From Eubacteriaceae bacterium CHKCI004 (GTDB taxonomy: Bacteria; Bacillota; Clostridia; Lachnospirales; Lachnospiraceae), in NCBI GenBank assembly GCA_900016875.1, contig FCNR01000042.1, positions 1-64,000 of the forward strand: a stretch of 64,000 nucleotides of DNA. The letters are read 5' to 3'. The position numbers and the translations under genes are program-made. Below the pieces are notes generated by a model, which did no database searches, was not told where the DNA came from, and worked only from the letters and a program-made list of their open reading frames with translations. Below, one piece after another: positions 3,211 to 12,760 of the stretch (its first letter is position 1; each line of letters begins with the position of its first letter).

Positions 3211-5013
3211 TTGGAAGAAAAGAAAAAATCAACTATCGCCTGGATACTGACCTTTGCCGGCAGCCATAAAAATCTCTATACCATCAGTGTAGCGACGGCG
3301 GTGATGGGGGTGATTTTCGGCGTGATTCCCTATTTTATCATGGGAGATATGATTCACAGGCTGGTGGACGGAGACAGAAACTGGCAGGGGTATCTGATGG
3401 AAGGGATTCTGATGGCATTGTGCTGGGCGGGAAGGGTTTTCTGCCACAGCATCTCAACCACCTGTTCCCATAAGGCTACCTTTCATGTGCTGGGCGGGCT
3501 CCGTCGGCAGATGTGCGATAAACTGTCCAGGGTGCCCATGGGATATGTGAAAGATATGCCGTCCGGCTCATTGAAAAATATTATGATGGAGAGGACGGAC
3601 AGCATTGAGACGACTTTGGCGCATATTCTGCCGGAATTTACTGCTAATCTGCTGGCTCCGCTCTTTGTTTTTTTCTATATGCTGACCATTGACTGGCGCA
3701 TGGCGCTCATTTCTCTGATTACGGTGCCGCTGGGATTTCTTTGTTACATGCTTATGATGGTTGGATATGAGGAAAATTACAGAAATGTGCTGACAAAAAC
3801 CAAGACGTTAAATGATACGGCGGTGGAATATATCAACGGTATTGAAGTCATAAAGGCATTCGGAAAAGCAAAAAGTTCCTATGAGCGTTTTGTCACAGCA
3901 GCGAGGGAAGGCGCTTCCTGCTATGTGGACTGGATGCGGAAATGTGATATTCCTTTTTCACTGGCCATGGTCTTAACACCCTGCACGGCGCTCACCGTGC
4001 TGCCCTTCGGCGGACTGTTTGTGATGAACGGAAGTCTTTCTCCAACGGATTTTATTATGATCATTCTGTTGTCGGTGGGACTGGTTCAGCCGCTGATTAC
4101 CTGCATGTCCTTTTCTGATGATATCGGAAAGATGAAAACAATTTTTGACGAAGTCACCGGTATACTGACTGCGGAAGAACTGTCCCGTCCGGCCAGAAAT
4201 CAGAAGACGCCGGAAGATGATTCTGTCGTTCTCAGAAATGTACGTTTTGGATATCATGACAAAGAGGTACTTCACGGTATTGATATGGAAATTCCGTCTG
4301 GTACTGTTACCGCTCTGGTGGGGCCTTCCGGCAGCGGCAAATCAACTATCGCTAAGCTCATTGCCTCCCTCTGGGATGTGAAGGAGGGCAGCATCTATAT
4401 CGGCGGCGTGGATATACGGAAACTGTCATTGGAAGAATATAACCGGAAAGTGGCATATGTGTCTCAGGATAATTATCTTTTTAATGACACTATCATGGAA
4501 AATATCCGCATGGGACGGTCAGGAGCCACAGACGAAGAGGTGATCGCCGTGGCAAAAAAAAGTGGATGCCACGATTTTATCATGGAGTTGGAGAACGGTT
4601 ATGACACCATTGCCGGTGGTTCCGGCGGACATCTTTCCGGCGGCGAGCGGCAGCGGATCGCAATTGCCCGCGCCATGTTAAAAGATGCTCCCGTTGTTAT
4701 TTTGGATGAGGCCAGCGCATACATGGATCCGGAGAATGAGGCGGTGATTCAGACTTCTGTGGCAAAACTGGTGCAGGGTAAGACGCTGATCGTCATTGCA
4801 CACCGTCTTTCAACCATCGCCGATGCAGACCGGATTTATGTGATTGATAAAGGCCGCGTGGATTCATTCGGAACCCATGGGGAACTGCTGAAAAATAACG
4901 GATTATATAAAAAAATGTGGGAGGCGCACATTTCTGTGAAAGATACGGTGAAAGCAAAAAGCAGCGCAAGGGTCGAAAAGAATCCGGAAAAGGGAGGTGT
5001 CGCTCATGCTTAA
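3211..5013 (+). CDS. ABC exporter half-transporter, first subunit
   Basis: 600 aa: N-terminal six-helix exporter membrane domain (about residues 20-310) fused to a nucleotide-binding domain (about 340-580). Walker A is GPSGSGKST, the Q-loop is VSQDNYLF, the signature is LSGGE, Walker B is VVILDEAS and the switch His is in IAHRLS. The start is TTG 3211 with GGAGG about 8 nt upstream. It overlaps the next gene slightly, so the two probably make a heterodimer. Pairs like this behind a TetR gene occur widely in clostridia; similar heterodimers handle siderophores, drugs or peptides, but the substrate cannot be read from sequence. Confidence 0.9.
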   Translation: MEEKKKSTIAWILTFAGSHKNLYTISVATAVMGVIFGVIPYFIMGDMIHRLVDGDRNWQGYLMEGILMALCWAGRVFCHSISTTCSHKATFHVLGGLRRQMCDKLSRVPMGYVKDMPSGSLKNIMMERTDSIETTLAHILPEFTANLLAPLFVFFYMLTIDWRMALISLITVPLGFLCYMLMMVGYEENYRNVLTKTKTLNDTAVEYINGIEVIKAFGKAKSSYERFVTAAREGASCYVDWMRKCDIPFSLAMVLTPCTALTVLPFGGLFVMNGSLSPTDFIMIILLSVGLVQPLITCMSFSDDIGKMKTIFDEVTGILTAEELSRPARNQKTPEDDSVVLRNVRFGYHDKEVLHGIDMEIPSGTVTALVGPSGSGKSTIAKLIASLWDVKEGSIYIGGVDIRKLSLEEYNRKVAYVSQDNYLFNDTIMENIRMGRSGATDEEVIAVAKKSGCHDFIMELENGYDTIAGGSGGHLSGGERQRIAIARAMLKDAPVVILDEASAYMDPENEAVIQTSVAKLVQGKTLIVIAHRLSTIADADRIYVIDKGRVDSFGTHGELLKNNGLYKKMWEAHISVKDTVKAKSSARVEKNPEKGGVAHA

Positions 5014-6739
5014 AATCCTGTTAAAGTTTTTTGATTTCTGCGGCGGAAAAAATAAGAGGAAATTCTATCATTCCATTGTATTTGGTATTTTTATGGCATT
5101 GTTTGAAGCCTTAAAGATTCCGGCCATTGTGCTCATGCTTGATGCTGTCATTGACGGGCGGGTTACGCCTGCGGTTACCTGGCAGTGCCTGGGTATCTGC
5201 CTTGTCAGTGTCATCGGCGGCTCCGTGGTTCGCTATTTTAATACGATCATCCAGTGCGAGGCGGGCTATGATACTACGGCAGGGAAGCGGATCGAGATCG
5301 CGGAGCATCTGCGGTACCTGCCCATGGGATATTTTAATAAGAACAGCATGGGTTATATCACTTCGGTGACCACTAATACCATGGAGTCACTCGGGGATGT
5401 GGCAACCAGAGTGGTCATGCTGACTACCCAGGGCGTGCTTACTACGCTGATTGTCGACATCATGCTTCTGTTTTACGATTACAGGATCGGTCTTGTGGTA
5501 CTTGCGGGCCTTCTGCTCTTTTTCCTGGTTAACAGCCGTATGCAGAAAAAGTCGGAGCGCATTTCACCCAAAAAGATTGCTGCCGACAGCACTCTTGTCG
5601 AACAGCTTCTGGAATACATTCAGGGTATAATGGAGGTGCGCTCCTATAATCTGTCCGGTGCCCAGAGCCGGAAGCTAAACTCTGCCATCGATGAAAATGT
5701 GGATACCAATTTTCTTCTGGAAAAAACATTTATCCCATACATGGGCCTGCAGAGCTTAGTGACCAAAATCACCGGCGTTGCCATGTGCCTGCTTTCCCTC
5801 TGGTTTTATCTGCAGGGAACCATGGAGCTGATGGTGTGCATCGCCATGATAATCTGTTCGTTTATCGTTTACTCCAGCCTGGATTCCGCCGGAAATTATT
5901 CGGCTCTCCTTCGCACCGTGGACGTCAGTGTGGATAAAGCGCAGGAAATCCTGGACCTGGAACCGATGGATATCAGTGGAAAGGATCTGGTTCCTGCAGA
6001 TTATTCTATTGATGTGGATGATATTGACTTTTCCTATGACAAACGAAAAATCATCGACGGAATTACCCTGCATATCCCGGAGCGGACCACCACAGCCATC
6101 GTGGGTCCCAGCGGAGGAGGCAAGACGACACTTTGTCATCTGATCGCCCGGTTCTGGGACGTGGACGGCGGACAGGTGCGCCTGGGCGGCTCCGATGTGC
6201 GGGAGTACAGCATGGACAGTCTCATGCGTAACTTTAGTTTCGTCTTCCAGGATGTATATCTTTTCCAGGACACTGTTGCCAACAATATCCGCTTCGGTCA
6301 GGAGGACGCTCCCATGGAAAAGGTCATTGAGGCGGCCCAAAAAGCCTGCTGTCATGATTTTATCATGGCGCTTCCCGATGGATACAATACTGTCATCGGT
6401 GAGGGCGGCGCGTCTCTCTCCGGCGGGGAAAAGCAGCGGCTGTCCATCGCCAGAGCCATCATGAAAGATTCTCCGGTCATCATTTTGGATGAGGCAACCG
6501 CAAACATTGACCCCGAGAATGAAAAGGATCTGGTGACTGCCATTGAGGCCCTCACCAGAGAAAAGACCATTATCATGATCGCTCACAGGCTGAAGACTGT
6601 CAGAAATGCCGATCAGATCATCGTGGTTGACCAGGGACGGATCGTTCAGCAGGGTCGCCATGATGATCTGATGAGTCAGGAAGGAATTTATCGAAGATTC
6701 GTAAACGCCAGAGAGACGGCAGCCGGATGGAAGTTATAG
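5006..6739 (+). CDS. ABC exporter half-transporter, second subunit
   Basis: About 577 aa with the same membrane domain plus ATPase layout as its partner. Walker A is GPSGGGKTT, signature LSGGE, Walker B VIILDEAT, switch IAHRLK. Both ATPase domains keep their catalytic Glu, so no degenerate site is evident. ATG 5006 is chosen because GGGAGG ends 8 nt before it; a GTG at 4997 is in frame but sits inside that ribosome-binding site. It overlaps the first subunit by 8 nt, implying translational coupling. Likely regulated by the TetR at 2311. Confidence 0.9.
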   Translation: MLKILLKFFDFCGGKNKRKFYHSIVFGIFMALFEALKIPAIVLMLDAVIDGRVTPAVTWQCLGICLVSVIGGSVVRYFNTIIQCEAGYDTTAGKRIEIAEHLRYLPMGYFNKNSMGYITSVTTNTMESLGDVATRVVMLTTQGVLTTLIVDIMLLFYDYRIGLVVLAGLLLFFLVNSRMQKKSERISPKKIAADSTLVEQLLEYIQGIMEVRSYNLSGAQSRKLNSAIDENVDTNFLLEKTFIPYMGLQSLVTKITGVAMCLLSLWFYLQGTMELMVCIAMIICSFIVYSSLDSAGNYSALLRTVDVSVDKAQEILDLEPMDISGKDLVPADYSIDVDDIDFSYDKRKIIDGITLHIPERTTTAIVGPSGGGKTTLCHLIARFWDVDGGQVRLGGSDVREYSMDSLMRNFSFVFQDVYLFQDTVANNIRFGQEDAPMEKVIEAAQKACCHDFIMALPDGYNTVIGEGGASLSGGEKQRLSIARAIMKDSPVIILDEATANIDPENEKDLVTAIEALTREKTIIMIAHRLKTVRNADQIIVVDQGRIVQQGRHDDLMSQEGIYRRFVNARETAAGWKL

Positions 6740-6800: not shown

Positions 6801-6942
6801 TAAGAAAAAAGTCATTTGGACAATTTCTGCATTCTGTCCCAAAAGGTAACACTTTTCGTGACCTTGTCCGAAAAAGTAACACTTTTTGGTGGGGTGTCCC
6901 ATTTTGAGACAGAAAAAAAGTTTTGCCCAATGACTTTTTTTC
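6801..6942. mobile_element. Repeat resembling a solo insertion-sequence end
   Basis: About 140 bp bounded by an imperfect inverted repeat (AAAAAAGTCATT at 6805-6816 against AATGACTTTTTT at 6929-6940). Inside are two full and one partial copies of a 30-bp unit starting TGTCC and containing AAAGTAACACTTTT-like sequence (6835-6864, 6865-6894, 6895-6912). Multiple internal repeats starting TGTCC next to the terminus are a feature of IS21-family ends. There is no transposase, so this would be a remnant or a MITE-like derivative. Family assignment is tentative. Confidence 0.35.
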
Positions 6943-7026
6943 GTGTTGAATTTATCATAAAGGCATAGTCAGAAAATTTTGTTTTCTGGCAAGAATAAAA
7001 ATTATGAACAAAAGGAGAAAGATAGA

Positions 7027-8373
7027 ATGAGTACACTTGTAGAGAAAGCAAAAATCGCGGCCATGTCCGCATCACTGACAAAAACATGGGAGTATCTTGG
7101 AAAGAATCCGGAGGAAAATGTACCCAAACTGATGGAACTTGTTGATAAAGTTGCGCCTGATGGCTGGTATGAAGGACAGAGAAACGCATTCAGAAAAGCC
7201 ATTGAAGAAAAGAGCAATTGGTACGAACTGATTATGAAAGTTTGGAATTTGGATGAAGGCGTCCGGAACACATTTTTTAAGAATTTTATCGTCAACGCCA
7301 GCCTTATTGGAAGCGCTAAACAGGAAGAAACGGCGGAAAAGGAAAATTGCAATGTGCCGTGGGCAATTCTCCTGGATCCGACTTCTGCCTGCAACATGCA
7401 TTGTACCGGATGCTGGGCTGCCGAGTATGGCAATCGCCTGAATCTTTCTTTTGAAGAACTTGATTCCATTGTCTCTCAGGGTAAAGAGCTCGGCACCTAT
7501 ATGTATATTTTTACCGGCGGTGAGCCGTTGGTGAGAAAGAAAGATATCATCAAACTTTGTGAAACTCATCCGGACTGTGAATTTTTGAGCTTTACCAATG
7601 GAACACTGATTGATGAAGAATTTTGCCAGGAAATGCTCCGGGTGAAAAACTTTGTTCCGGCTATCAGTCTGGAAGGTTTTGAGATGGCAAATGACGGAAG
7701 AAGAGGACAGGGTGCTTATGAAAAAGTCATGAAGGCTATGAAACTGTTAAAAGACCATAAATTACCATTTGGTATTTCTGCTTGCTATACCAGCAAAAAC
7801 TGTTATGATATCACCAGTGAGGAATTTTTTGACATGATCATAAACGCGGGAGCATTGTTCATCTGGTTCTTTCATTATATGCCGGTCGGAAATGGCGCTG
7901 CGCCGGAACTTCTTCCTGCGCCGGAGCAAAGAAAGATGATTTATGACAGAATCCGTACATACAGAAACTCCAAGGCGATTTTTTCCATGGACTTCCAGAA
8001 TGACGCCGAGTACGTGGGAGGCTGTATCGCAGGAGGAAGACGTTATCTGCACATTAATGCAAAAGGTGATGTGGAGCCATGTGTATTTATCCATTATTCG
8101 AATGCAAATATCCGGGAATGTACGCTGCTTGAAGCATTAAAGAGCCCGATTTTCATGGCATACCATGATGGACAGCCCTTTAACGAAAATATGCTCCGTC
8201 CGTGTCCGATGCTGGAGAATCCGGAGATCCTTCCAAAAATGGTCAGAGAATCCGGAGCGAAATCCACGGATTATGAGTCGCCGGAAGAAGCAGATAAGCT
8301 GAGTGAGCGCTGTCAGCCTTACGCAGATAACTGGAAACCGCAGGCGGAAGAACTGTGGGAGAGCCACAGATAA
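7027..8373 (+). CDS. Radical SAM enzyme with C-terminal auxiliary-cluster region
   Basis: 448 aa. A helical N-terminal region of about 110 residues is followed by the radical SAM core with the SAM-binding cluster at Cys122, Cys126 and Cys129 (CNMHCTGC) and GGEP at 164-167. The C-terminal third has a SPASM/twitch-like pattern (GGCIAGGRRYLHINAKGDVEPC, then a later PCP motif), so a second iron-sulfur cluster is likely. ATG 7027 is taken for its AAAGGAG 8 nt upstream. It is followed by a P-type ATPase and a cysteine-less paralogue, all in one direction. The substrate is unknown; a membrane or lipid-linked target is only a guess from the ATPase partner. Confidence 0.88.
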   Translation: MSTLVEKAKIAAMSASLTKTWEYLGKNPEENVPKLMELVDKVAPDGWYEGQRNAFRKAIEEKSNWYELIMKVWNLDEGVRNTFFKNFIVNASLIGSAKQEETAEKENCNVPWAILLDPTSACNMHCTGCWAAEYGNRLNLSFEELDSIVSQGKELGTYMYIFTGGEPLVRKKDIIKLCETHPDCEFLSFTNGTLIDEEFCQEMLRVKNFVPAISLEGFEMANDGRRGQGAYEKVMKAMKLLKDHKLPFGISACYTSKNCYDITSEEFFDMIINAGALFIWFFHYMPVGNGAAPELLPAPEQRKMIYDRIRTYRNSKAIFSMDFQNDAEYVGGCIAGGRRYLHINAKGDVEPCVFIHYSNANIRECTLLEALKSPIFMAYHDGQPFNENMLRPCPMLENPEILPKMVRESGAKSTDYESPEEADKLSERCQPYADNWKPQAEELWESHR

Positions 8374-8444
8374 TATTTGATCGTACATAAGATGGAAGTG
8401 ACAAAGGGCGGATGACGCAAAAATACCGACAGGAGTGGAATTGA

Positions 8445-10844
8445 TTGGCAGGAATAAAAAAAGGAACAGCAAAAAATATTTCAGAGAGAAAAGAGATAGA
8501 GCGAGTAAACCCGGATTACAGATCAGGGCTGTCCGAAGAGCAGGTGAGAGAGCGGACGGAAGCCGGATGGGACAACAGAGAAGTCGATGCAGCGCTTTTG
8601 AGCACCGCAGATATCATAAAGAAGAACGTCTTTACTTATTTCAATCTGATTTTTACGGTTCTGGCCATTCTCCTCTGCCTGGTCGGTTCCTTCAGAGATC
8701 TGACGTTTCTTCCCATCATTATTATCAATACTATCGTGGGAATTGTGCAGGAGATTCGGGCTAAAAACGTACTGGAAAAAATGACGATGCTTCATGCGCC
8801 GCGGGCGGAGGTTATCCGCGGCGGGCGTGAACAGTCGATTCCGGCAGAAGAAGTTGTTGTGGACGATATTGTCGTATTTCAGAGCGGCAGTCAGATTATC
8901 GCTGATGCGGAAGTGTGCGCCGGTGAAGTCCAGGTCAATGAATCTCTTCTGACGGGAGAGTCTGAGGAGATTACGAAAGGCGAGGGTGATGATCTTCTCT
9001 CCGGAAGCTTTGTTACTGCCGGCAAATGTTATGCCAGACTGGAAAAGGTAGGGGAAGATTCTTATATTTCCAAACTGACATTAAAGGCGAAAGCCATGCG
9101 GGAAGGAGAACAGTCAGAGATGATTCGTTCCCTTGATAAACTGGTAAAATTTGCCGGTATTGCCATCATTCCGATTGGCGCCGCTTTGTTTTTGCAAAGC
9201 TATTATTTGAATGCAGAATCTTTCCGCGATAGTGTAACTTCCATGGTTGCCGCCGTTATCGGCATGATTCCGGAAGGACTGTATTTGCTGGCCACAGTTG
9301 CGCTTACGGTTAGCTGTGTCCGTCTGGCGAGAAAAAAGGTGCTGCTGCACGATATGAAAAGTGTGGAAACTCTTGCCAGGGTTGATGTGCTTTGCGTAGA
9401 TAAAACAGGTACGATCACAGAAAATGAAATGTCTCTTTATGATGTGGTTCTGATGCAGGAAAAACAAAATATCCGCTCAGTAAAAAATAAACTGGCGGAT
9501 TTTGTCTATGCAATGGACGCGGATAATGATACAATGAAAGCATTGAAGAATGCTTTTCCAGGAGGTAAGAAGAGGAAAGTCATAAAAACTATTCCTTTTT
9601 CTTCTGCCAATAAATACAGCGGTATTATTTTTGAGGATGGAGCGTATATTCTGGGCGCGCCGGAGTTCGTTCTTTTAGATAAATTTGACAGCTTTCAGGA
9701 GAGTATATCACATTATACCGAGGAAGGATACCGTGTCCTTGTATTCGGCGTCAGCCCTGAAGTTCCGGAAGGAAAGACTCTGAAAGAAGGAATTGAACCT
9801 TTGGCAGCGGTTCTATTGATGAACAAGATCAGAGAAGAGGCGCCGCAGACATTTGCATATTTTAAGGAACAGGGTGTAGAGGTCAAAGTGATTTCAGGTG
9901 ATAATCCTCTGACTGTTTCCGAGACAGCCAGGGCGGCGGGTATCCCTAATGCACAGCAGTATGTCGATGCACGCACCCTGAAAACAGACAGTGATATTGA
10001 AGAAGCAGTGCAGACGTATACCGTGTTTGGACGTGTGCTTCCGGAACAGAAAAGCCAGTTTGTGAAAGCGCTGAAAAAACAGGGACGTACCGTTGCGATG
10101 ACAGGGGATGGCGTCAATGATGTACTTGCTCTGAAAGAAGCGGATTGCAGCATTGCCATGGCATCAGGCAGTGAAGCCGCCATGCAGGCGGCGCAGGTGG
10201 TATTGCTGGAGTCTGATTTTTCCAGGATGCCGGAAGTTGTGGGAGAAGGCCGGCGGGTGGTGAATAATATTCAGCAGTCAGCCAGTTTATTTTTGGTGAA
10301 AAATATCTTTTCACTGCTTTTATCTTTGATTTCCATTTGCTTTGTGTTCACTTACCCGTTGAAACCGTCACAGATGTCGTTGATCAGTATGTTTACAATA
10401 GGCATTCCAGGTTTCTTTTTGTCTCAGCAGCCTAATAAGAAACGCATCGAAGGCAGATTTCTGTCCAATGTCATGGTAAAAGCACTTCCGGGAGGTATTA
10501 CTGACGCTTTGCTTGTGGCCTCGCTGACGTTCTATGGTAATGTGTTCTTCATGGGAACAGAGAATATTTCCACCGCGGCGACTATTTTGCTTGCCGTAGT
10601 GGGATTTATGATATTGTTTAAGGTTTGTGTGCCGTTCAATATATTTCGTGTTTGTGTATGGACAGGCTGCATTATAGGAATTGCGGGAGCTGCTTTGATT
10701 TTCCCGCATCTCTTTGCATTGCAGCCAATATCAGAAAAGGTTATTTTATTATTGCTTTTATTTATGATTTCTGCGGAACCGGTATTCCGGTATTTGACAA
10801 AACTGGTCGAGGGGATACAGCGGCTTATAAAAAAGGTTTTGTGA
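8445..10844 (+). CDS. P-type cation-transporting ATPase
   Basis: 799 aa, HAD-type P-type ATPase. The phosphorylated Asp319 is in DKTGT; the actuator motif LTGES is at 169-173, PEGL in membrane helix 4 at about 276-279, and the hinge TGDGVND at about 553. Roughly eight to ten membrane helices fit. There are no N-terminal CxxC heavy-metal domains and no CPC in helix 4, so it is not a copper or zinc (P1B) pump; a CtpE-like cation pump is nearest by feel. TTG 8445 is the likely start, with AGGAG 9 nt before it. It lies between the radical SAM gene and its degenerate paralogue, which suggests a shared role. Confidence 0.88.
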   Translation: MAGIKKGTAKNISERKEIERVNPDYRSGLSEEQVRERTEAGWDNREVDAALLSTADIIKKNVFTYFNLIFTVLAILLCLVGSFRDLTFLPIIIINTIVGIVQEIRAKNVLEKMTMLHAPRAEVIRGGREQSIPAEEVVVDDIVVFQSGSQIIADAEVCAGEVQVNESLLTGESEEITKGEGDDLLSGSFVTAGKCYARLEKVGEDSYISKLTLKAKAMREGEQSEMIRSLDKLVKFAGIAIIPIGAALFLQSYYLNAESFRDSVTSMVAAVIGMIPEGLYLLATVALTVSCVRLARKKVLLHDMKSVETLARVDVLCVDKTGTITENEMSLYDVVLMQEKQNIRSVKNKLADFVYAMDADNDTMKALKNAFPGGKKRKVIKTIPFSSANKYSGIIFEDGAYILGAPEFVLLDKFDSFQESISHYTEEGYRVLVFGVSPEVPEGKTLKEGIEPLAAVLLMNKIREEAPQTFAYFKEQGVEVKVISGDNPLTVSETARAAGIPNAQQYVDARTLKTDSDIEEAVQTYTVFGRVLPEQKSQFVKALKKQGRTVAMTGDGVNDVLALKEADCSIAMASGSEAAMQAAQVVLLESDFSRMPEVVGEGRRVVNNIQQSASLFLVKNIFSLLLSLISICFVFTYPLKPSQMSLISMFTIGIPGFFLSQQPNKKRIEGRFLSNVMVKALPGGITDALLVASLTFYGNVFFMGTENISTAATILLAVVGFMILFKVCVPFNIFRVCVWTGCIIGIAGAALIFPHLFALQPISEKVILLLLLFMISAEPVFRYLTKLVEGIQRLIKKVL

Positions 10845-10873
10845 GAAGAAAAGAGAGGGCAAAGGCGATTACT

Positions 10874-11899
10874 ATGCAGAAGGATATCAGCAGAATATTA
10901 ATTGAATCTGTAATTAATAAAACATTGAAAGATATTACTGTGTCTCCCCGCAGGACTGCAAGGAATCTCATTGACATGGGGGTAAATTTTTCAAAAGGCC
11001 GTTTTCAAAAGCTCTTTCTTTCTTCTGCGCAGGAATTTCTGCAGAATCAGAACAGTGCTTACTATGACTTGATTACCGACGTGAGCGATCATGTGGATAA
11101 AAAGATTATCTCTACTTTTGGAATGAATCTTGGTTATAATGGCTGTACAAGAGGAGCAAAAAAGATTCGTGAGATAAAAAAGAACAGACATTTTCATGTT
11201 CCATGGTCTCTTTCTCTTGCACTGGATAAAGAAAAAATGGAAGAGGACTGTTCTGTATACAGGAGTATTATCAGTCAGGGAAAAGCGCTTGGCATTTTTG
11301 TTTATCTATTGAAAACAGAAGAAGGGCAGCTTGGAATGCTGCTGCCGCTTCTTGAAGAGAATCAGGATTGTGCTTTTGTCCTGTTTTTGGAAAACACGGA
11401 ATTACCGCAGTATTTTCTGACGGATATACGTAAGATCAGGAATACGATGATATGTGTGAAAGACAGCGAAAAAGCGGCAGATCTATGTCCTAGGCTGAGA
11501 GAAGAGCATCTGCTGTACGCTATTTATTCTTACTATTCAGAAGAAAATGAAGAGTCCATCGTCAGCGGTCGGTGGCTGCATGAAATGATGGCGCTGCATC
11601 CATATTTTGTCTTGCTGGCGCCGTTTCCGTCGTGCTGTCCGGAAACTTGCAACCGGGTCTATGAATACATTCTTTCCGTGCGTAATGGACAGAAAGATGC
11701 AGTTATCGCCATGGATTTATTGCAGGATTCCTGGAAAATCAATGAAATTATTTCGGAAGAAAGCTGTGATGTCGGATTTAATGCAGATGGCAGCGTACGG
11801 GTACATAATCGAAATGGTATCGAGAAGATAAACATGCAAAACATTTTTCACTCCAGTGTGGAAGAGATCCTTAAGGCTGTTGTCCCGGGAAGAAGATAA
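10874..11899 (+). CDS. Degenerate radical SAM paralogue lacking cluster cysteines
   Basis: 341 aa. It aligns with the radical SAM enzyme at 7027: HVPWSLSL (108-115) matches NVPWAILL, ISQGKALGIFVY matches VSQGKELGTYMY, ENQDCAFVLFLENT matches THPDCEFLSFTNGT, and GQKDAVIAMDLLQD matches NSKAIFSMDFQND. The stretch carrying CxxxCxxC is replaced by a segment about 15 residues shorter without the cysteines, and GGEP is lost. It should not bind the SAM cluster and may be a partner or regulatory subunit. ATG 10874 was preferred; longer in-frame starts lie inside the ATPase gene. The ribosome-binding site is weak, so coupling to the ATPase is likely. I would not call it a pseudogene since the frame is intact throughout. 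Confidence 0.75.
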   Translation: MQKDISRILIESVINKTLKDITVSPRRTARNLIDMGVNFSKGRFQKLFLSSAQEFLQNQNSAYYDLITDVSDHVDKKIISTFGMNLGYNGCTRGAKKIREIKKNRHFHVPWSLSLALDKEKMEEDCSVYRSIISQGKALGIFVYLLKTEEGQLGMLLPLLEENQDCAFVLFLENTELPQYFLTDIRKIRNTMICVKDSEKAADLCPRLREEHLLYAIYSYYSEENEESIVSGRWLHEMMALHPYFVLLAPFPSCCPETCNRVYEYILSVRNGQKDAVIAMDLLQDSWKINEIISEESCDVGFNADGSVRVHNRNGIEKINMQNIFHSSVEEILKAVVPGRR

Positions 11900-11913: not shown

Positions 11914-12465
11914 CTATAGCGTAAATTCCGGATTTTCAGTGACTTCACGGGAAGCCCGCATGACGGCAATCCTGACAAAACGGCAGAATTCATCAGGGAG
12001 CATGGCGTCCTTTTTGGAAAGCCATTTTTTGATGGCGCAGACCAGAGCATCTGTGTAGAATTCCGCATAGGGGTCCACAGATGGTTCGTCCTTAAAAATA
12101 TCGGCCAGATGTGCAGACATAATGGAAAAAATCAGCGAAAAGAAATATTCTGAAAAAGAATTCTGCCCTTCTACCCGAAAGGTTTTATTATAGAAGTCAC
12201 GATTTTCATAAAAATAGCTGCACATTTCTTCAAAAAGATTCCAGGAAGTGTCAAACTGCTTTTCAATCGCTTTCTCTACAAATTCTGTATAATAGATCCA
12301 GTTGATTAATTCATATTTATCTTTGAAATGGTAATAAAAACTTTTGCGGTTTAATCCGCACTGACTGCAGATACTTCCCACGCTGATCTTTTCGATGGGC
12401 TGTACCTCCATGAGTTCTTTCAGAGACTGTGCAAGTGCACGTTTGGTGATATTGGAATCTGACAA
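11914..12465 (-). CDS. TetR family regulator (DhaS-like)
   Basis: About 183 aa. The N-terminal helix-turn-helix (ITKRALAQSLKELM ... KISVGSICSQCGLNRKSFYYHF) is of the TetR subgroup with CGL-R-FYYHF recognition helix, like DhaS. TTG 12465 is the likely start because AGGAGGGG ends 6 nt before it; an upstream ATG at 12507 has no such site. It converges on the radical SAM cassette and is divergent from the malic enzyme gene. Either could be its target. Confidence 0.85.
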   Translation of the reverse strand: MSDSNITKRALAQSLKELMEVQPIEKISVGSICSQCGLNRKSFYYHFKDKYELINWIYYTEFVEKAIEKQFDTSWNLFEEMCSYFYENRDFYNKTFRVEGQNSFSEYFFSLIFSIMSAHLADIFKDEPSVDPYAEFYTDALVCAIKKWLSKKDAMLPDEFCRFVRIAVMRASREVTENPEFTL

Positions 12466-12760
12466 AATAATCCCCTCCTGATAATTCACACAAAAATATG
12501 ATAACAAAAAAGAGGCGGAATTTCAAAGTTTTTTTGAAATTTCTATTAATTATATAGGAATATTATGAATATCGATCAATTAACATAAAAACCTGTATAG
12601 AAGAACCCTCCTGCTATATAAAACGCTGTAAGAAATAATTTTAATAGGCCAAAAGATAAAAAGACTTCTGGATTTTCTCGCCGTTTTGCTGTATTGTATA
12701 TGGGGATGCGGGCAGAGAAAGCTGCCCGCCGAGTATTTTGATTTAGGAGGATTGATATCC

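Follow-up and report, generated by a model that had tools for sequence, protein, structure and literature searches.

The closest described system to the locus studied here is the DhaS-DhaQ pair of Lactococcus lactis. DhaQ is a dead paralogue of DhaK, and the operator of DhaS is reportedly a 22-bp repeat of the GGACA...TGTCC type, with the same outer bases as the repeat described below. Passages of two papers name DhaQ as the coactivator of the DhaKLM operon (PMC7911632, PMC8952416). Here we analysed a 64,000-nucleotide stretch of contig FCNR01000042.1 from Eubacteriaceae bacterium CHKCI004 (positions 1 to 64,000; hereafter the window), where genes for a radical S-adenosylmethionine (SAM)/SPASM enzyme (ENZ), a P-type ATPase and a pseudo-radical-SAM protein (PSE) are followed by a convergent gene for a DhaS-type TetR regulator. 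By analogy with DhaQ and DhaS, we consider it likely that PSE is a catalytically dead sensor of the radical SAM fold and a co-regulator for the neighbouring TetR.

The TetR of the window and DhaS fall in the same NCBIfam family (TIGR02366). As in the DhaS-DhaQ pair, a dead paralogue of a regulated enzyme is tied to a DhaS-type TetR, and this TetR would likewise act with the paralogue of the enzyme it regulates. The differences lie in the fold, the targets and the regulator itself. PSE is predicted to have a radical SAM fold rather than that of DhaK, and homology to DhaK and DhaQ was absent: no Pfam or NCBIfam model, those of dihydroxyacetone kinase included, matched PSE at E-values up to 0.1. 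The targets here are a radical SAM enzyme, P-type ATPases and membrane proteins, and the TetR has a GQNSF segment that is missing from DhaS 2iu5 and the DhaS-like 4mk6.

Three further families invite comparison. ENZ is a typical radical SAM/SPASM enzyme (PF04055, PF13186) by its motifs and Pfam matches, and such enzymes are the first matches of the PSE model; unlike them, PSE lacks CxxxCxxC and GGEP and matches no Pfam model. TIGR04347 is a named pseudo-SAM/SPASM family of haloarchaea, but ENZ scored far under its cut-off (56 of 525 bits) and PSE itself had no match to it at E-values up to 0.1. The bacterial membrane-spanning lipid synthase Mss is a radical SAM enzyme, a class it shares with ENZ in a comparison made by description and not by sequence. 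Passages of one paper put the Lachnospiraceae species that have homologues of mss and ger at 561 and describe Mss models as similar to Tes, an archaeal lipid enzyme (PMC13274423), and excerpts of further papers are cited beside Mss (PMC11868695, PMC11604127). Tes (7tol) matched ENZ weakly (E = 0.034) and was not among the 50 Foldseek matches listed for ENZ. Our leading guess for the chemistry of ENZ, drawn from the neighbouring genes, is a membrane-lipid reaction.

The PSE family and its TetR neighbour

An earlier note on this DNA had described three codirectional genes with short gaps, the last encoding a seemingly dead paralogue of the first, a radical SAM enzyme with a SPASM-like end. The open reading frames (ORFs) and their translations match this description, with 71 bp between ENZ and the ATPase gene and 29 bp between the ATPase gene and PSE. 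ENZ passed the Pfam cut-offs for both Radical_SAM (63.6 bits; cut-off 29.5) and SPASM (22.3 bits; cut-off 21.5). BLASTP aligned ENZ with PSE over 325 columns at 22% identity (E = 1e-13), leaving a gap of 15 residues over ENZ 117-131, the span that holds CxxxCxxC, and GGEP is replaced in PSE. The genome of the window has two further intact ENZ paralogues (62-63% identity); a second PSE was not found there in the searches made.

Relatives of PSE were collected from GTDB genomes by a pattern scan with a 27-sequence alignment. The best 80 of the 154 encoded relatives that it found were used further. By title, they come mostly from Lachnospiraceae and other Clostridia, together with two metagenome-assembled genomes titled Chloroflexi. 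Among these best 80 of 154, the closest are from Eubacterium sp. An11 and Candidatus Anaerobutyricum avicola. Neither CxxxCxxC, sought anywhere in the frame, nor GGEP occurs in any of the 80 PSE loci, and the frame is open over at least 290 amino acids (aa) in 79 of them. ENZ in the fetched PSE loci has CxxxCxxC in 43 of 44 cases and GGEP in 43 of 44. In a phylogenetic tree, 74 PSE sequences formed one clade (support 1.0) apart from 44 ENZ sequences (support 0.99). This argues against chance loss of the motifs and supports the earlier reading of an intact enzyme with a dead paralogue, here shown to be conserved and monophyletic.

The earlier note had also proposed testing selection on the paralogue. 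Comparisons with the window were near or past saturation, and the one unsaturated pair (L037 and L038) gave ratios of nonsynonymous to synonymous substitution rates (dN/dS) of 0.14 for PSE (dS 0.59), 0.06 for ENZ and 0.08 for TetR. Eighteen columns are invariant in 50 PSE sequences. PSE is under purifying selection and is not decaying. Separately, Cys91 and Cys254 of PSE are kept in at least 90% of the 50 sequences, despite the loss of the cluster cysteines.

An AlphaFold2 model of PSE (predicted local distance difference test score 90.9) has five N-terminal helices and a barrel. Its nine top Foldseek matches are radical SAM enzymes (among them SuiB, viperin and SkfB), with template-modelling scores of 0.4-0.56 that denote a partial match; other barrels come lower in the list. 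PSE is therefore predicted to keep a radical-SAM-like fold: the model has a barrel of this type, and the sequence lacks the CxxxCxxC of the superfamily. The N-terminal helical domain is common to the ENZ and PSE models. Conservation in PSE peaks in this domain (mean 0.67 versus 0.49 in the rest), and in ENZ it peaks after it (0.81 versus 0.62).

The earlier note did not report the convergent TetR gene. Its product has the Pfam domains TetR_C_8 and TetR_N and lies barely above the cut-off of the DhaS model TIGR02366 (129.3 bits; cut-off 129). While this cut-off itself was verified for the window TetR, the model was matched at E 0.001 by all 42 aligned TetR sequences, picked from 60 and including that of the window. 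A profile built from the TetR sequences finds in the PDB both DhaS 2iu5, which is named a transcriptional activator, and the DhaS-like 4mk6. Three of the 80 loci ended too soon to test for linkage. In the remaining 77, a convergent TetR gene lies no more than 1.7 kb downstream of PSE in 59, in 48 of them within 260 bp, and four further loci have a TetR gene within 6 kb of PSE. Of the last 14 genomes, 11 encode the TetR elsewhere (at least 254 bits; next best TetR at most 100), and in the other three the top TetR scored 88 bits, 47 bits and nothing. The residues GQN are present in 54 of the 59 PSE-adjacent TetR proteins.

We then compared how PSE, TetR and ENZ are distributed in a family set of 397 genomes. 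Genomes were counted as PSE-positive on matches of ~65 bits or more that did not coincide with the place of ENZ, plus a contig-edge piece in G170; TetR presence required more than 115 bits and ENZ presence E 1e-70. These counts rest on hand cuts, with the 74 other matched genomes taken as ENZ cross-hits except for one of them (G121), which was left unclassified. This genome has no ENZ at 1e-70, and its 339-aa frame on C133, with weak likeness to PSE (95 bits), is perhaps a remote member. PSE was present in 38 genomes, TetR in 34 and ENZ in 128. TetR occurred in 32 of the 38 PSE-positive and 2 of the 359 PSE-negative genomes (Fisher p ~1e-38), and ENZ in 31 of the 38 and 97 of the 359 (Fisher p ~6e-11); since the genomes are related, these p-values overstate the association.

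A recount with profiles gave scores of at least 159 bits for 36 of the 38 PSE, and the next matches, to ENZ, began at 132; the two others (G032 and G170) are fragments. Across 338 of the 397 genomes, all 27 with a TetR of at least 205 bits were PSE-positive. Next in the TetR ranking came PSE-negative G043 at 153 bits and then the broken TetR of PSE-positive G132 at 141. A stop interrupts both PSE and TetR in G132, and the two genes are likewise both incomplete in G032; neither genome has ENZ. Seven of the 38 PSE genomes have no ENZ of the same family at E 1e-70, and four of these seven have a long open PSE. In six of the seven, a lax search turned up only unrelated radical SAM matches of 52 bits at best, or nothing; in the seventh, G160, it found a distant relative (33% identity, 180 bits).

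Tree distances gave a similar picture. In 35 loci with all three genes, PSE and TetR distances correlated at r = 0.87, with a partial correlation of 0.86 once ENZ was removed (0 of 2000 permutations). PSE and ENZ distances correlated at only r = 0.23, with a partial correlation of 0.03 once TetR was removed (739 of 2000 permutations). With the comparison restricted to the 24 loci that have ENZ divergent from PSE, the values were 0.90 for PSE-TetR and 0.24 for PSE-ENZ. All 54 PSE-TetR pairs gave r = 0.78, or 0.74 after adding ten unlinked pairs; the unlinked pairs correlated at 0.57 with the linked ones and at 0.96 among themselves. L224, one of the 11 genomes with an unlinked TetR, was left out of this comparison as its PSE is masked in the gene list. 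Because of both the co-occurrence and the tree-distance correlations, we conclude that PSE follows TetR and not ENZ. The analysis does not support the earlier reading of PSE if it is taken as primarily a partner of the enzyme.

Operators and promoters

An operator was likewise unreported in the earlier note. When spaced dyads upstream of ENZ, PSE and TetR were counted without bias, GGACA-N12-TGTCC came out clearly at the top with 37 loci; in 10 shuffles, no dyad exceeded 5. The operator matched 64 times in 1.29 Mb, where ~1.2 matches are expected by composition, and 47 of the matches lie outside called ORFs. Genes downstream of operators include ENZ, PSE, TetR, P-type ATPases, VTT, AI-2E, DUF308 and others.

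The presence of the operator before ENZ went with that of PSE in the genome. Allowing one mismatch, it was found upstream of ENZ in 12 of 13 regions from PSE-positive genomes with linked genes, in 12 of 19 with unlinked genes, and in none of 40 regions from PSE-negative genomes. The linked group overlaps in species with the loci in which the dyad was discovered; the unlinked group played no part in discovery. The 40 PSE-negative regions represent 38 genomes, chosen by rank and not at random from the 97 such genomes. In a second set, of named PSE genomes with unlinked ENZ, the operator preceded 14 of 29 ENZ genes, not counting the partial ENZ of L258, which has one base upstream. Among the fetched regions, L139 was dropped for its wrong flank. 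Further ENZ paralogues had the operator in one of five cases in PSE-positive genomes and in neither of two in the genome of the window.

PSE promoters had the operator within one mismatch in 45 of 72 regions. It was also present in 8 of the 12 readable loci without a nearby TetR gene, and in 7 of the 10 where the TetR gene lies elsewhere in the genome. Four loci were read from PSE-positive genomes without ENZ. Two of them (L020 and L036) had sites and two (L032 and L034) had none; the L020 sites lie before PSE and between TetR and a P-type ATPase gene.

The operators are phased with the promoters. A -10-like hexamer lies exactly 24 nt past the operator at 30 of 45 PSE and 15 of 29 ENZ promoters, compared to maxima of 7 and 6 in 200 shuffles. 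The -35 elements are weak, with consensus CTTGTT at PSE and CATGA at ENZ. With this 24-nt spacing, the operator sits immediately before the -35 element, as for many activators. In the window, 6928 is the last base of the degenerate proximal site and 6953 the first of the -10 element, which is the same spacing (Table 1). Promoter-like matches in this region were not above chance (11 found, 11.4 expected), and the candidate promoter is backed by its phasing with the operator.

Beside the operators, a GTAACA box lies within 16 bp on one side of 26 of the 64 sites, compared to ~0.4 expected. This box has flanking A/T runs at 6846-6886 of the window and in many related loci, and may be the site of a second regulator. 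A further inverted repeat in the window, ATTTCAAA...TTTGAAAT (12520-12542), overlaps the likely -35 of the TetR gene and is a possible autoregulatory site of another type. Elsewhere in this genome, one operator-like 22-mer recurs on three contigs (L127, L130 and L138), each time within a 753-aa ORF of equal length and position, which points to a repeated, perhaps mobile, element. High-scoring operators were also found between genes for an AMP-binding enzyme and a HemN-like radical SAM protein, and where an acyl-CoA dehydrogenase ORF begins (L135/L129); these genes are possible further targets.

Table 1. Genes and putative regulatory sites of the ENZ-PSE locus, in window positions (PWM, position weight matrix)
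Feature	Positions	Strand	Details
Distal operator, perfect GGACA-N12-TGTCC	6818-6839	+	PWM score 23.5
GTAACA box beside operator	6846-6851; second copy 6876	+	Recurrent beside operators elsewhere
Proximal degenerate operator, next to -35	6907-6928	+	2 mismatches in 10 fixed bases; second-best PWM score upstream of ENZ, 6.1
Candidate promoter of ENZ-ATPase-PSE	6930-6958	+	-35 ATGACT 6930-6935; -10 TATCAT 6953-6958
ENZ, radical SAM/SPASM enzyme with N-terminal helical domain	7027-8373	+	ATG at 7027; 448 aa
P-type ATPase	8445-10844	+	TTG start; 799 aa
PSE, pseudo-radical-SAM protein	10874-11899	+	ATG start; 341 aa; cluster and GGEP motifs gone
DhaS-type TetR (TetR_C_8)	11914-12465	-	TTG start at 12465 after AGGAGG, start read from sequence

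Weighing the roles of PSE

In the mechanism that we propose, the TetR would bind GGACA-N12-TGTCC. PSE would bind the TetR, perhaps via its conserved N-terminal helical domain, and would hold a ligand in its old active-site barrel, the simplest candidate being the substrate or product of ENZ. The TetR-PSE complex would then activate transcription from the site beside the -35 element. In the window, ENZ, the ATPase and PSE would all be driven from the one operator region ahead of ENZ, which would amount to positive feedback.

Other roles for PSE have to be considered. It could be a non-catalytic subunit of ENZ, the dead half of a heteromer, with the TetR merely regulating both genes. In 44 of the 80 loci, ENZ does lie no more than 6 kb from PSE, and 24 of the remaining 36 genomes have it elsewhere (68 of 80 in total); both models have the N-terminal helical domain, and the same operator is found at both promoters. 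Yet the PSE and ENZ trees mismatch, some PSE genomes lack ENZ and keep a long open PSE, ENZ occurs without PSE in 97 genomes, and conservation is highest in the N-terminal domain for PSE but in the barrel for ENZ, which makes a subunit quite unlikely. We also regard it as unlikely that PSE is a plain member of the regulon with its own role outside transcription, for instance as a binder or carrier of a lipid or metabolite or in another reaction not of the radical SAM type. Its promoters bear the operator as those of other targets do, its model is well folded, and DegV, patatin, VTT and P-type ATPase genes occur nearby. However, an ordinary target is not expected to track TetR so tightly, and ENZ, which is also a target, does not. 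Decay of a functionless ENZ copy would explain the lost catalytic motifs and the few broken copies (the stop in G132 and the fragment in G032), but we consider it almost certainly wrong given the uniform motif loss, the long frames in 79 of 80 loci, the fully supported clade, the low dN/dS and the invariant columns.

A variant that is compatible with PSE as a sensor and co-regulator reverses the sign of regulation. Most TetR proteins repress, and a repressor could also act from an operator beside the -35 element; PSE would then be a ligand-sensing anti-repressor or co-repressor. We regard this as rather unlikely, since the 24-nt spacing and the weak -35 elements fit an activator that touches the polymerase better, and since the annotation of DhaS, its closest named family, is that of an activator.

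Several observations weigh against PSE as the co-regulator of this TetR and its operator. No operator within one mismatch was found before 15 of the 29 unlinked ENZ genes in the named set and 7 of the 19 in the family set, while 3 of the 40 PSE-negative regions exceeded a permissive PWM threshold, though they scored weakly (7.7-8.1). The promoter of the window's own TetR gene has no operator (best PWM score -8.3). Its genome has 16 exact operator matches versus 4 for a reversed control, and only one precedes ENZ. Among the 38 PSE-positive genomes, 6 have no detected TetR, one of them at a contig edge and two with a truncated PSE. GQNSF-bearing TetR proteins occur in two PSE-negative genomes of one genus, which shows that the pairing is not absolute; GQNSF was for this reason rejected as a mark exclusive to PSE-paired TetR. 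Physical linkage can give part of the PSE-TetR congruence, though unlinked pairs correlate too. Finally, the analogy with DhaQ leans on what is described of its relation to DhaK and of its mechanism.

Neighbouring genes and the proposed regulon

The earlier note had tied the enzyme and its paralogue to a cation pump and proposed counting the three genes together across genomes. The tie recurs, with a P-type ATPase gene within 3 kb of PSE in 20 of the 80 loci (one a fragment), but it is not a fixed component. A fixed enzyme-pump-paralogue system was rejected on this count. ENZ, with its 44 loci, is no constant neighbour either. The operator lies within one mismatch upstream of 11 of 24 P-type ATPase genes. 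The pump thus recurs as a target in the regulon but is not an obligatory one. The best-scoring solved relatives of the window ATPase are Ca2+ ATPases (lmo0841), and its scores stayed below the Ca2+ equivalog cut-offs of TIGR01522 (223 of 798 bits), TIGR01517 (211 of 507) and TIGR01116 (196 of 703).

DegV, patatin and VTT, family names that rest on one representative each, were also rejected as fixed partners: of the 81 loci (window included), 12, 9 and 11, respectively, have them. None of 13 DegV genes had an operator upstream, compared to one of 9 genes for patatin and four of 11 for VTT. Just upstream of the locus, the window has a TetR_N protein (2311-2937) and an ABC (ATP-binding cassette) exporter gene pair (3211-6739), whose best NCBIfam match, MsbA, is far under the cut-off. 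An ABC gene also lies upstream of ENZ in L037.

We know of no earlier transcriptional co-regulator with a radical SAM fold. Literature searches on pseudo-radical-SAM proteins, or on radical SAM with DhaS, the TetR family or coactivator, gave no relevant title among the matches listed. We lean towards a history in which a radical SAM enzyme was duplicated and one copy lost its cluster and became a coactivator that senses a ligand for a TetR; this TetR then came to control a membrane-related regulon (radical SAM enzyme, P-type pump, VTT, DUF308 and AI-2E-type proteins) via a phased operator. If true, this would be an independent repeat of the route from DhaK to DhaQ, in which an enzyme was turned into its own sensor, and the radical SAM fold would join the enzymes converted to transcriptional co-regulators. 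It would further suggest that DhaS-type TetR proteins have recruited dead enzyme paralogues as sensors more than once. The step from operator to regulon is directly testable in gut-type Clostridia. The ligand of PSE would then probably be what ENZ acts on, which would offer a route to the reaction of a widespread enzyme.

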